From Ianthella basta (taxonomy: Eukaryota > Porifera > Demospongiae > Verongiida > Ianthellidae), in assembly GCA_964019415.1 (NCBI GenBank), contig OZ025870.1, forward strand, positions 9,970,270 to 10,034,269: a DNA stretch of 64,000 nt, written 5' to 3'. Numbering within the stretch: position 1 is the first letter of the stretch; each line of letters begins with the position of its first letter. The notes under the pieces are model-generated. The model was not told the DNA's origin, searched no databases, and worked only from the letters and a program-made list of their open reading frames with translations. A program made the translations under genes and the position numbers. Positions 4,149-57,094 of the stretch are shown here, in pieces.

Positions 4149-4234
4149 ATGGCTACCGCAACGGCATTTTCCCAATTCCCTCCGCAGGGGCGTCACGCAT
4201 GGCTGTTTTCGCATCACAGCCGAATCGAATTGAG
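4149..4234 (+). CDS. Candidate first exon of gene A
   Basis: An ATG at 4149 opens a 28-codon frame followed by a good donor (GAG/GTAGGC). The upstream position fits the start of gene A. However, it ends in phase 2, whereas the next certain exon (4523) needs a phase-1 partner. Either a small exon lies between them or the true start is elsewhere. This is inference from position and donor only. Confidence 0.25.
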
Positions 4235-4522
4235 GTAGGCCAAACTGCTGCATTAGGAATCTCGTTGATTTCGCTTCGCAGAATGCTAAACACTCTTAAG
4301 AATACAGAACGTGGATACTCGGGCTTAGCTCCATTATATATAGGATTATTTATTTAGATTAGTGGTGTATATTGTTACTTGCACTGTATTTAGATTAGTA
4401 GTGTATATTGTTACTTGCACTGTATTTAGATTAGTGGTGTATATTGTTACTTGCACTGTATAGATTATTGTAATGAGTATTCGTAACATATATATTGCAT
4501 TCATGCCTTTTCTCACATGCAG

Positions 4523-4701
4523 CCCTTCCTGGCACTGATCTTGCCTCACTCCAAGGAGAGCACCAAGTGCCCATACCTGCCAAACTAAGTCCGTGTACTG
4601 ACTGTATTCATAAAGAAGAGGAGCTTAAGGAGAAGAAGTTGCTCATAGAGAAACTACTTGCCGAAGTGAGGGAGTTACGCAATAGCAAAGTGGAACTCAG
4701 G
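4523..4701 (+). CDS. Gene A exon: coiled-coil segment
   Basis: The acceptor CACATGCAG precedes the exon and the donor AGG/GTAAGA follows it. It starts in phase 1 and ends in phase 0. The beginning of the exon and the upstream intron resemble those of gene B exon 4 (32277), with related starts ALPGTDL and AYPSTDP. The homology then stops and A continues into a Lys/Glu-rich coiled coil, where B has a different helical domain. This marks where the two paralogues diverge. Confidence 0.65.
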
Positions 4702-7700
4702 GTAAGAGATTTCAAGGATTGTCTCTGCAGGAATGTGCTTCCAACATTCCATTCCATTGCTATTTCAGTGTCACATGCATGGGTATAAAAACTATAGTTC
4801 CATAGCACATTATATTCAGGAATATCAATTCAATGTGAATTGCACATGAAGTGGTAATCTCTGCTCTACTGTTTGCATGTGTCAGGAATTTCAGAAGAAA
4901 CACTCAGGCCCTATGAAGCGGCCATTGAAGAAGGAGGGAGAGGGAGGAGAGGAACCAGCTCTCAAAGAAATAAAATTGAAGGAAGAAGAGACAGTAAATG
5001 TAGAGCAGGAGGGCAGCCTACAGGTACAGAGGTGTATGTGTCACGAATGGATGGTTACTAGTCTCGTACCCAGACCCCACCCGTCCGCCGGCGGCCATTT
5101 AATCGTGACATCATACGCGGACGGGAAGGGGTCTGGCACATAACCTATGTGAGAGTTCATTAATGACCTGGAATGTACGGGACACAGTGAGGAATGTTAA
5201 TTGACAATGTAAAGCTCGCTGGACTGTCGGAACGGCGGAAAACCAAAAACCTACAGCATTGCGGGCAGTGATTCATGAAGAACCTCACAGACTAGGCTAT
5301 GTTAAAGCTAATTCCAAGCCGTTGTCGGCGATTTTGGCGATCTGCTAAGGAAAATGCGTTTTAGTCAGGAGCTTCGATAACACGGCCATCTTCGCAGGTT
5401 GTCTTCGCTGTTTAGCCATCGGTGGCCCATGTTGTAGTACCTATAGGTCCTCTGACAAGCTTATTGTCCGCTTTCGTCCGCAATAAGAGAAGCATCAAAC
5501 TCTTTCTGATGCCATGGATGATTTCTGCACACTCAGGCTGCTTAAAACGCTGGATTCAGCCTTTCCTTTGCCAGGGAACTCTTCTTGGAAACATAGCAAG
5601 CGATCCTACGCGAGAAAGCAACGGTTTCATTCGCATTTCTGCTCCCCTGACGCTTACTATCTCGCGCGAATGTTTGATTAATTACATGTCTGTGGTTGCG
5701 TGGGTGGAAGAACTCCTGTATAGGAAATGTGCCAGACCCTTTCTCTCCGACCGATTACGTCATAATAAAACAATGGAGGTGAGAAAGCGGTCTGGGTAGA
5801 CTAGATGACTCGAGACTAGATGGTTACTGTGTTGTACTTTGGTCTTAACATTTGCAATTGAGCAGGTGTAAGTGTGTTTCTGTTTATCGCTTGTCTCGTA
5901 CATTCACAGATGTATCCATTTCAAAAGGTGGAGAAGCGGGAAAGAGAGAAGGACTGCATCGAAGCACATTCTCCTTGTGGCATATCCCAGTGGGGTCCTC
6001 AAACCCCTTCTGAGTTCCCCCCTCCCTCCCCATACTCTTATCCTTATGCTGAGCCTTTCCACGAAAAGGCACCCTCTCTTGAAATGGAACGACCTGAAGC
6101 ATTGCCGGCAGAGGTATGCTTTGACTATGTGGTTTTTGAGTTCTGTATTGAATTTTGTCTCACTGTCTTGTAACTTATGTCGCTTCATTCACAAGTACTG
6201 CTAGCTATTGCATTGACCAATGCCCTAGTGCTGTACTTGTTCTTCTGGTAGCATTACTTTTGTGTTTGATAGCAAGTGATTGTAGTCATTCATTCATCCA
6301 TCTTTGAATATCCTGTGTGTTTACCATTTACTGTTGATACTGCTTGCATGCAATGGCACAGCAGATAAGTGTGTAGCACAGCATAGCAGCTGTGAAATTA
6401 AACAGTGCACATGTGCTGACATGCAGTGAATGGTACAGTATGACATAAATTCACTGATTTCTTCTGCCAAAATCACTAGTCAAGTCACTTTTGAATGCAA
6501 TGCAATCTGATATCCATCACCATAATAAATTTATTATAGCACTGACAACCACAACCACTTAGGCTTGTCCCACATGCACCTGATCATACTGTACAGTAAG
6601 TGTGTTGTACTTGGTACATTCCATGAATGTGTCATTTGCTCTGTGATTGGTGGCATATTGCAAATTATGTTCATACCTGAAATTGTAATGTACTGAATGA
6701 AAGTTCACTTCTCCCTGTGGTCCATGTAGGTTCCTTCACAGGGTGGTGTCTTCGATCAGTCTGGGTTTAGCGAATCAGGGCAACCTGTCCTTCAGACTCC
6801 TCCCACCTCACATATATCACAGACAGGACCATTCCAATATCAGCAAGCACAGGTCTGTGTGCATGTGTGTGTGTGTGTGTGTGTGTGTGTGTGTGTGTGT
6901 CTGTGTGTGTGTGTGTGTGTGTGTCCACGTGTGCATATGTTTGTTTACATAGATACCTGTCATAAACTCTTCTTTCTATATTCCTGTAGGTTCCCCAACA
7001 GAGTGGTGTCTTCCCTCCACCTGTATTCAGTGGAGCACTTCATCCTGCCCATCAGACTCCCCCCACACAATCAGTAGAGATTGGACCACATGGATCTCAA
7101 CAGTCACAGGTTTTGTGTGTGTGTGTGTGTGTGTGTGTGTGTGTGTGTGTGTGTGTGTGTGTGTGTTATCACTTACTGGGTCTATCCATCCAAGACATGA
7201 TACTATCTTCATGTTGGCTGGCCGGTGATCAGAGCTGAGTCACAGTGCAGCACTCCATCTGATGTAACATCCAACCCCACCTGTGTTTACAGGGAACAGA
7301 CAGTACATGTGTAGATGATGAAACCACAAACTTGGCGAAAGCAAACTGCATGGACAATAGTAGTACCATGCATGCATGTATTGTTGTCATGTCTGTCAGC
7401 AAGACAGATGTTAATCATACATCACCATAATACGCAGTGATAAACTTTCTCATGGTTTTCAGAGATCAGCAGCTATCCACAAACATTTCACCCTGCAAAA
7501 ATGTACTTAAAAGGTTTTATATAGATAGCCAGACTGAGTACCTGCAACCACAAAAGTAAAATCGCAAATCTCGCAACTGCAAAAGTTTAAACCTGCCAAG
7601 TAAAGTGTATACAGATTTCTCCATATGGTCTCTGTAGGTACCCTCACAAGATGGTGTTGTCCCTTTCCATGTCTTGACCAGAGCACGTCAAACAGTCTTT

Positions 7701-55340: not shown

Positions 55341-55451
55341 GTTCCCCCAAAGGGCAGTGTCATCCGTTACCCTGTAAGTCAAACTGTCTTTCAGTCTCCT
55401 TCCGACCTACCATCAGAACAAATTGAACCACTTGGATCTCAGCAAACACAG
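55341..55451 (+). CDS. Gene E linker-repeat exon
   Basis: 37 codons, VPPKGS type, phase 0, open; acceptor CTCTATGTAG and donor ACACAG/GTGTGC. Confidence 0.78.
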
Positions 55452-56128
55452 GTGTGCTTTGTGCTGTCTGTGCATACATCTGTACATACATGTACATACA
55501 TGTCTTTCTCTCTCTCTCCAAGTGTGTGGGAGTGTGTGCATGTGTGTGCTGAGCTTGAATTGTCCCTATGTCTTGTCAGTTGTAGAATTTGTGGTAGCAG
55601 TTTTATACTCAATCTTATGGTCTCATTGATCAATATGCTTTCAATCACCGTCATGTACAGTTTCCTGGACAGATGTATTGCATTGTGAGGCCTCACTTGA
55701 TTTAAAGGCAATGCGCAAATATAGCTGCCCTCACATAATTTCTTGGCTGTGTGTTGTGAGTGTAGTTGGTGAATGAAGAGTAAGATTGACAATGTGCACT
55801 GTGCAATGTAACTCACATCCATGGTGCACTGCAGTTTTGAAGTTCATCTCCTTGACTTGTTACAAACCTTTCACTTCTCTACACTAGTCAATAGTATAGT
55901 GTTCCCTTAACATTGTCCTGTGTACACATGAGTGACTCTCACAGTACACAGCATGCAATTTTACAACATTTACTGGAGTACCCATCACAATACAGTCCAT
56001 TGCCATGGCAATGGTTAGGAAGTTCTAATCCCCTAACGATACTCCCTGCCAGTGTGTATACAGTTTGTTTCACGTGGTAGTGAATTTTACAGTTAGAATG
56101 TACACATTCTTCCTCTGTCTGTCTCTAG

Positions 56129-57094
56129 ATTTTCCAAACAGGCCCACTGGTAGATGGCAGAGCCATTGTGCAGTCAAGGAAGCTGCCAGATATTCCAATA
56201 GCAACATCCTACGCTACAGCAATTATGATCAACAACCACGTCTATGTCTGTGGAGGAGCCTGTGGTGATGTTGTTTCAGCTCGTACAGTTCAAGTATACA
56301 GCGTCAGCCACCAAACATGGACCACTCTTCCACTCAGTCCACAGTATCACTGTCAGGCTGTAGAGATCAAGGGCCACTTGGTACTTATTGGCGGGAGAGA
56401 GTCATCATCCTGTAATATCACCAACCTTTTGAGCACATGGAATGGGCAGGTTTGGCACCACGAACTGCCACCTATGCCTACCAAGCGACTTGCCCCCGGT
56501 GTAACTGCTTACCAAAACCTAGTATTGGTCACAGGAGGTAGGGGTGAGGACGGGCAGACCCTTCTCAGTAGTATCGCCATACTCAACATCACCACACTCC
56601 AATGGTCAACACCAGACAACTTGAAACTACCGCAACCAATGTGTGAGATGCAACATACCATATCCAGTTCACACTTGTACGTTGCAAGTGCTGCCATCAC
56701 GTATGATGTAACTACCAATACAGGCACAACTACTCATTCTGTGTGGCAGTTGCCACTGACTGCACTGGAGAATGTGCTTACAACTGAAAGTTATAACATA
56801 TCACATCGCTGGACAGAAATAGCACCTATCCCTTACTACAGCTTAGTGCTATTACGAGACACAGCTCATGTTGTAGCTGTTGGTGGAGATGACAAGTCAC
56901 ACACACCAACTTCAGATGTGTTTGTTTATGATCCCAACAATAACAAGTGGTCCAAAGTGGGTCAGCTTTGTGTACCACGTGCTGATTGTGCTGTTGTATC
57001 TCTAAGTAGCACATCCTTTATTGTGTGTGGTGGGTGCACTGACACAAGAGACCCTAACACACGTCTCAGTTCTGTTGAAATGGTGCACGTGTAA
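56129..57094 (+). CDS. Gene E terminal exon: kelch beta-propeller
   Basis: Acceptor TCTCTAG; 321 codons to TAA; no damage. Blades carry YVCGG, LVLIGG, LVTGG, VAVGG and FIVCGG strands. Survival of this frame while the kinase has three shifts is notable. Confidence 0.88.
   Translation: MFQTGPLVDGRAIVQSRKLPDIPIATSYATAIMINNHVYVCGGACGDVVSARTVQVYSVSHQTWTTLPLSPQYHCQAVEIKGHLVLIGGRESSSCNITNLLSTWNGQVWHHELPPMPTKRLAPGVTAYQNLVLVTGGRGEDGQTLLSSIAILNITTLQWSTPDNLKLPQPMCEMQHTISSSHLYVASAAITYDVTTNTGTTTHSVWQLPLTALENVLTTESYNISHRWTEIAPIPYYSLVLLRDTAHVVAVGGDDKSHTPTSDVFVYDPNNNKWSKVGQLCVPRADCAVVSLSSTSFIVCGGCTDTRDPNTRLSSVEMVHV

Follow-up and report, generated by a model that had tools for sequence, protein, structure and literature searches.

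To our knowledge, the large families of variable receptors in animals rest on leucine-rich repeats (LRRs), immunoglobulin domains or similar. In fungi, the HET-E/HET-D NWD genes make up a multigene family where differing N-terminal effectors sit on related C-terminal propellers and are exchanged among members, and where, in each WD repeat, four positions at the interaction surface are under diversifying selection (available part of PMC4986451). A multigene family with exchange of differing N-terminal effectors on related C-terminal propellers is also found in the sponge Ianthella basta. It was recognized in a stretch of 64,000 nucleotides (GenBank assembly GCA_964019415.1, contig OZ025870.1, positions 9,970,270 to 10,034,269, forward strand), here called the window, where five kelch exons on the plus strand terminate five gene models, A to E. 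The initial annotation counted five genes; they belong instead to a family with about 100 kelch exons, of which the window holds only a corner, and D is the only gene seen whole and unbroken within the window, with kinase, linker and kelch exons. The genes join different N-terminal heads to one type of propeller, exchange these modules and are hypervariable on one propeller face, and we consider it likely that they encode a large repertoire of intracellular receptors for recognition, carried in the germline, in which the effector stays constant and the kelch propeller is diversified.

The size of the family follows from a search with the kelch exon of gene D against the 209.1-Mb genome. Its counts are lower bounds, with scores for 124 of 218 candidates. 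There are at least 124 kelch matches at E ≤ 1e-20 and at least 103 with an identity of 44% or more (some being fragments of one exon), and contig C3, which carries the window, holds 93 of these 103 among the matches listed. By identity to D, the kelch exons are divided into class I (about 74–82%), class II (about 70–73%, fragments 65–71%), which is the array at 10.90–11.02 Mb of C3, and class III (about 44–53%); the remaining 21 matches, with 28–33%, form a distant group. The classes mostly track array position. When 122 kelch features are chained with heads by position and strand, 56 have a kinase only, 27 a CARD-type head (one of them also a kinase) and 39 neither, part of the 39 being due to the head lists, in which 132 of 915 kinase candidates were scored. 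Strict chaining gives a head in 83 of the 122. Among the matches listed, a head match lies upstream within 11 kb on the same strand for 89 of the 122 features and on the opposite strand for only one, and the association between head and kelch is therefore not due to chance. In 20 class I loci with about 9 kb of upstream sequence there are 16 CARD-type heads and three kinases, and one locus (L019) has no head within the stretch.

Genes with kelch alone were considered as a further type and rejected: seven of eight such loci examined carry a divergent kinase (44–46%) and one carries ankyrin repeats. At L055 (C2:11732569–11737568), a distant kelch exon (30%) has ankyrin repeats on its upstream side. 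Open frames of 1802–2005 amino acids at six kelch matches, which could have been giant fusions, are deemed an artefact: N runs of 4–5 kb occur in L017, L018, L020 and L025, and the frame of L025, the one of the six that was read, is a run of 5000 N. On C3, many kelch and some kinase matches at 13.22–13.28 Mb recur with identical scores at 13.297–13.352 Mb, about 74–77 kb apart, and these twin blocks either arose by recent duplication or were duplicated in the assembly. Contigs C5, C9, C11 and C16 hold dozens of kinases (44–78% identity to the window kinase) with no kelch nearby among the matches listed; one such locus on C5 (L057), read over 5 kb, showed no further domain.

The exchange of modules is seen when a tree of 49 kelch rows, with the distant outgroup omitted, is compared with a tree of 15 kinase rows. 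In the kelch tree, class III is a single clade (100/100), yet it includes both kinase types, and when the 12 kinB-headed kelch exons are constrained to one clade, 292 log-likelihood units are lost (approximately unbiased (AU) test, p = 3.4e-38). In the kinase tree, the class III kinases are split: L059 groups with those of class I, the remaining seven with the class II kinase, and each of the two clades has 100/100; a single clade of the eight is rejected (AU p = 7.3e-85). From this conflict between head and kelch trees follows that modules have been exchanged, i.e., that heads and propellers have changed partners between family members, as the initial annotation had proposed with its swappable N-terminal modules on one propeller. 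In relation to D, the genes at C3:12662650, C3:12972736, C3:13036799 and C18:3250743 combine a kinase of 81–82% identity with a kelch exon of 45–52%, and 13 genes of the 10.90–11.02 Mb array pair a kinase of 47–49% with a kelch exon of 70–73%; unequal rates alone could hardly produce both patterns.

TG tracts can promote recombination. In the window and loci L009 to L028, 44 of 67 linker matches have a (TG)8 or longer tract within 150 nt downstream, when about 11% would be expected from tract density, and in the window long (TG)n tracts follow directly after many linker donors (within 6864–14517, 24224–24265 and 34496–34587). The phase-0 linkers together with the adjacent TG repeats are a possible engine of exchange.

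The hypervariability of the propeller was defined from the 27 open kelch exons of class I, which have 20 hypervariable positions with contributions from every blade. In the numbering of the kelch exon of D they are the following.

Residues 28, 44, 74, 95, 121, 138, 172, 173, 189 and 191
Residues 197, 199, 238, 254, 256, 258, 286, 306, 310 and 313

The AlphaFold model of the D kelch is a six-bladed propeller with a predicted local distance difference test score (pLDDT) of 92.3, and its best fold matches are NS1-BP, LZTR1, KEAP1, KLHL20 and KLHDC3. All 20 of the hypervariable sites fall in the DA and BC loops (p = 5e-8; compared with the loops of the opposite face, p = 3e-4), and it is through DA and BC loops that KLHL20 and KEAP1, according to the available parts of the literature, bind their peptide partners. 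The sites of a 22-site list drawn up in class I also exceed the rest in variability in class II (p = 4.8e-18 with 4 rows) and in class III (p = 5.7e-9 with 10 rows). The selection of sites can be separated from the measurement by picking them in classes II and III only (5 + 10 rows) and measuring them in class I. For the 15 most variable sites chosen in this way, the non-synonymous diversity pN is 0.447 and the synonymous diversity pS is 0.221, so that pN/pS is 2.02, compared with 0.59 at the remaining sites; the corresponding ratios are 1.54 and 0.56 for 25 sites and 1.58 and 0.50 for 40 sites. The DA and BC loops hold 22 of the 25 sites (p = 5e-6). In the three codon positions, diversity is 0.55, 0.52 and 0.25 at hypervariable codons and 0.08, 0.07 and 0.11 elsewhere, where the values for positions 1 and 2 at hypervariable codons are elevated by the choice of sites. 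The rapidly evolving sensor of the initial annotation is supported by this confinement of hypervariable sites to a putative binding face.

The heads behave differently from the propeller. Median dN/dS is 0.28 for the kinase, 0.31 for CARD1, 0.35 for the exon that encodes the two domains dom3 and dom4, 0.40 for CARD2 and 0.65 for kelch, in sets that consist of copies with an open exon and from which the share of broken copies cannot be derived. Columns with at least five residue types number 0 in kinase (6 rows), 0 in CARD1 (6 rows), 0 in CARD2 (16 rows), 5 in dom3+dom4 (12 rows) and 28 in kelch (27 rows). When kelch is subsampled to 6, 12 and 16 rows, about 3, 15 and 20 such columns are found. 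Since sets of six rows show few columns even for kelch, CARD2 (0 against about 20) and dom3+dom4 are the fair controls. Compared with kelch, the heads of kinase and CARD type thus vary far less.

Two types of head dominate, a kinase exon and a set of CARD1, CARD2 and dom3+dom4 exons; the exons examined beside kelch score as kinase, CARD or ankyrin, or match no Pfam family. By eye, one exon of about 280 residues with a phase-0 end appears to be the first coding exon and to hold the whole kinase head, and its best matches in the PDB are CTR1 and TNNI3K, followed by a mix that includes WNK and NEK7. The motif patterns of an active kinase (the VAVK Lys, the alphaC Glu, HRD, DxG and [SP]PE) are all present in four of six type A exons, including those of C and D. 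The alphaC pattern missed L012 and L027 owing to adjacent residues, and the Glu is present by eye in both. Judging from these motifs, the kinase heads are probably active.

CARD1 of gene B reaches 27.7 bits with the Pfam CARD model, for which the cut-off is 23.9, and its PDB profile matches are weak and mostly CARDs (E 0.05–0.94). A genome search with CARD1 gave 34 matches, 32 of them on C3. CARD2 of gene B, with 21.4 bits, falls below the same cut-off; the CARD of APAF1 comes first among its PDB profile matches, weakly (E = 0.057); APAF1 accounts for 7 of the 25 rows with E ≤ 1, and most of the others are EF-hand proteins. In the genome, CARD2 has at least 150 matches (378 candidates) with 46–100% identity, many of them on C4, C5, C6, C8 and C17. 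For at least 38 of 82 CARD2 matches on C2, C4, C5, C8 and C20, a NACHT exon lies 1.5–7.5 kb downstream on the same strand, and none of the 82 has a NACHT exon within 10 kb on the opposite strand, among the matches listed (102 of 469 NACHT candidates scored). Locus L058 on C17, when read through, has a CARD2-like exon (60% identity) and then a NACHT exon with a P-loop. Because its relatives precede NACHT exons, CARD2 is taken as a CARD of the NOD-like receptor (NLR) type; it is about 50–60% identical to the CARD exons of NACHT genes in its own genome, and to judge by these sequences the CARD-kelch genes and the NACHT receptors of the genome have the same kind of CARD. A NACHT exon of the genome used as query had no match at E ≤ 1 either in the window or in loci L009 to L028, four of which hold N runs of 4–5 kb, and there is no NACHT in C3:9.4–13.4 Mb among the matches listed. 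The first member of the dom3+dom4 exons has no Pfam family, and weak matches occur in some of 13 others (best E = 0.029); against the PDB there is no match (best E = 2.3), and the AlphaFold model is poor (pLDDT 46). These domains may be death folds.

To see how such a receptor could operate, consider the following scheme. The six-bladed kelch propeller would be the diversified ligand-binding part, where the DA and BC side chains of every blade vary from copy to copy under diversifying selection and the scaffold is retained, and the N-terminal head would be the constant output, either a probably active kinase or the CARD-CARD set. Linker exons with phase 0 at both of their ends would allow heads and propellers to recombine in the tandem arrays. 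When a ligand is bound at the propeller face, the proteins would cluster and signalling would begin, by phosphorylation from the kinase or by way of the CARDs, in the latter case possibly through assembly together with NACHT proteins bearing the same type of CARD. The signalling might be used in defence or in recognition of self and non-self. More tentatively, we propose that the roughly 100 germline genes are a second, kelch-based system beside the NLRs, with kinases and NLR-type CARDs as outputs, a propeller face that recognizes non-self and shuffling by phase-0 linkers and TG repeats. With its hypervariable propeller face joined to a kinase or an NLR-type CARD, the family would be an animal parallel to the variable-propeller receptors of fungi and a ready test system for recombination of receptor and effector modules; ligand specificity is then predicted to reside in the about 20 residues named above, and a swap of heads is predicted to alter the output and leave the target unchanged.

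The data can also be read in other ways. If kelch exons are homogenised by gene conversion within arrays, which is possible and could yield the same tree pattern, old lineages would look shuffled and the exchange of heads would be apparent only. We regard this as somewhat unlikely: there is some recombination signal in the class I kelch exons, and the classes largely follow the arrays, but kelch exons of both class I and class III carry type A kinases, and they do so on several contigs (C1 and C21; C10, C18 and C23), beyond one array, and gene conversion of kelch exons would itself be exchange at the level of modules. The propellers could, furthermore, distinguish self from non-self between individuals, as in tissue fusion, instead of being directed against microbes. 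The diversification is compatible with either use, and the closest working parallel, fungal HET-E/NWD, serves incompatibility and has N-terminal domains of various kinds on a hypervariable propeller (available part of PMC4986451); yet the heads have no transmembrane or secretion signal that was noticed (no predictor was run), which makes direct contact between cells less likely, and we find this use unlikely. Adaptors in signalling or ubiquitination, with propellers that bind many host proteins and have no role in non-self recognition, would agree with the fact that the best fold matches are adaptor propellers. However, a genome-wide search for the BTB domain (63 of 63 candidates scored, 58 matches) places none on C3, and the DA and BC loops, which here contain the most variable sites among close copies, are well conserved within each KLHL protein according to the available part of PMC10146909; the adaptor explanation is accordingly quite improbable. 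Decay, finally, is suggested by the frameshifts in B, C and E, i.e., in three of the five window genes, but 27 class I kelch exons are open, and the median dN/dS values of kinase (0.28), CARDs (0.31–0.40) and kelch (0.65) make it very improbable that the family is mostly a collection of functionless duplicates.

These frameshifts belong to a number of points that weigh against a family of recognition receptors. In class I, kinase and CARD heads are interspersed, the exchange test is weak (p = 0.036; a test of the same kind in class III gives p = 0.045), the tree is poorly resolved, and changes of head label are barely fewer than in shuffles. The borders of the DA and BC loops, on which the counts of sites in loops depend, were drawn by hand once the sites were known. 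The 25-site ratio gives only p = 0.0105 in a permutation test, and among 272 sites examined for a per-codon non-synonymous excess none passes Bonferroni correction and two reach p < 0.01. Recombination in kelch exons can inflate signals of selection, and the pairwise homoplasy index (PHI) test gives p = 0.001 for the kelch exons, 0.022 when the hypervariable codons are removed and 0.23 for third positions only. The dom3+dom4 exon scores above cut-off for no Pfam family and is itself somewhat variable, with its five columns. The gene models and the head-kelch architecture are predictions from genomic sequence, and any ligand of the propeller is hypothetical.

The gene models of the window, all on the plus strand, are composed of the following exons.

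4523–4701, plus: gene A, exon with dom3-like start, then coiled-coil-like; joins upstream CARD2 exon in frame
4886–5023, plus: gene A, junction exon 1; 80% identity with B junction exon 1
5910–6113, plus: gene A, junction exon 2; 66% identity with B junction exon 2; borders by eye
6730–6852, 6990–7109, 7638–7760, 7859–7978, 8078–8200, plus: gene A, linker exons; AG/GT borders
~14028–14138, 14277–14396, plus: gene A, linker exons; AG/GT borders
15678–16646, plus: gene A, kelch exon, 322 amino acids; Pfam
22443–23285, plus: gene C, kinase exon; Pfam 134 bits; donor by eye
24078–24200, plus: gene C, linker exon
24727–25694, plus: gene C, kelch exon, 968 nt, frameshift near 25494; Pfam above cut-off in the single-frame part
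30208–30498, plus: gene B, CARD1 exon; Pfam CARD 27.7 bits
31488–31791, plus: gene B, CARD2 exon with a CARD of the NLR type and a phase-1 donor; 21.4 bits with the Pfam CARD model, under its cut-off; next exon joined in frame
32277–33138, plus: gene B, dom3+dom4 exon for two domains, frameshift near 32790; by comparison with paralogues
33271–33408, plus: gene B, junction exon 1
33513–33716, plus: gene B, junction exon 2
34373–34495, plus: gene B, linker exon
35182–36147, plus: gene B, kelch exon, 321 amino acids; Pfam
44083–44931, plus: gene D, kinase exon with VAVK, alphaC Glu, HRD, DLG and SPE motifs; Pfam; donor by eye
46003–46112, plus: gene D, phase-0 linker exon
46875–47843, plus: gene D, kelch exon, 322 amino acids, structure modelled; Pfam
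53670–54559, plus: gene E, kinase exon, frameshift-broken, pieces in several frames
55342–55451, plus: gene E, linker exon
56129–57094, plus: gene E, kelch exon, 321 amino acids; Pfam

The observations of the initial annotation are partly confirmed by these models. Its five kelch exons of 966–969 nt (968 in C) were located, each is preceded by an AG acceptor, and the Pfam search it called for gave kelch models above cut-off in five of five, kinase in C and D (134–137 bits) and CARD1. The linker exons are indeed of 0-0 phase with AG/GT borders, those of gene A in 6730–8200 being rich in Pro and Gln with about 40 amino acids each, and the relationship between the junction exons of A and B holds. 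Of the three kinase heads, those of C and D stand, while the exon of E is broken by frameshifts; gene C has its kinase exon open and its kelch exon frameshifted, and gene E the opposite. Of the two CARD-like domains in B, CARD1 scores above the Pfam cut-off, and CARD2, below the cut-off, is assigned from its relatives before NACHT exons. At the frameshift of B near 32790, eight of eight translated paralogues read open. The expected donor of the kinase exon is GC instead of GT in L027 and in gene E (in E by eye from the translation).

The coiled-coil head of gene A is not supported as a separate type of module. Splicing of the ATG exon at 4149 at its obvious donor leads to stops in the next exon. 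The first 18–21 amino acids of the exon 4523–4701 resemble the start of the dom3 exon in paralogues, and the exon is joined in frame by a CARD2 exon that is intact and lies outside the window, at C3:9953093, some 21 kb upstream of gene A, in the same way as CARD2 of B joins its own next exon. From this follows that gene A, of which both junction exons, the seven linkers and the kelch exon are all open, is probably a CARD-type gene with its CARD exon 21 kb upstream, rather than a gene with a third type of head. The interpretation given in the initial annotation is otherwise supported, and the immune function that it suggested is one we can only infer.

A broken retroelement without long terminal repeats lies in an intron of gene A (8399–13556, reverse transcriptase match in Pfam), and a second broken element, similar to long interspersed nuclear elements, at 40363–43637 has a first frame that is endonuclease-like (below cut-off) and, by eye, a 2A-like DVEANPGP motif. 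A RING-finger exon adjoins the array on the minus strand (48898–49365; Pfam; TRAF-like by eye), an open frame with EF-hand calcium-binding motifs lies at 59234–59818 (minus strand), and a run of 200 N occupies 18764–18963.

Arrays of kelch-kinase or kelch-CARD genes were not reported in the literature searched, where most subscription papers were beyond reach; the nearest is PMC6208332, in the available part of which kelch genes and CARD genes are separate entries among the response genes of sponges. In the animal CARD-NACHT NLRs, which are present in the same genome and, as CARD-NACHT-LRR genes, listed for the sponge Dysidea avara (available part of PMC12909245), there is likewise an N-terminal CARD, but NACHT was not found in the kelch genes, and the recognition part here is a kelch propeller. 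With the BTB-Kelch proteins (KLHL; KEAP1, KLHL20) the family shares the six-bladed fold and the candidate binding face; it differs by having no BTB domain and by loops that are hypervariable between close paralogues. By the features tested, the genes thus encode kelch-repeat beta-propeller proteins that are neither NLR nor KLHL. APAF1 consists of a CARD, an NB-ARC domain and WD40 propellers. It has in common with the present genes that a CARD is joined to a propeller, and its CARD is the best, though weak, PDB match of CARD2, but here the propeller is kelch instead of WD40, no nucleotide-binding domain was found, and the family has about 100 genes. Kinase and CARD also meet in RIPK2-like signalling; here they are alternative outputs on separate proteins with a common kelch part. 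When, finally, the comparison is made with HET-E/NWD, the hypervariable positions of the interaction face and the differing heads on related propellers are shared. WD40 and a NACHT switch are used there, whereas kelch is used here and NACHT was not found; the effectors are HET, HeLo-like and others in fungi, and a kinase or CARDs in this animal. By analogy, the kelch family would appear to work like HET-E/NWD without being a member of it.

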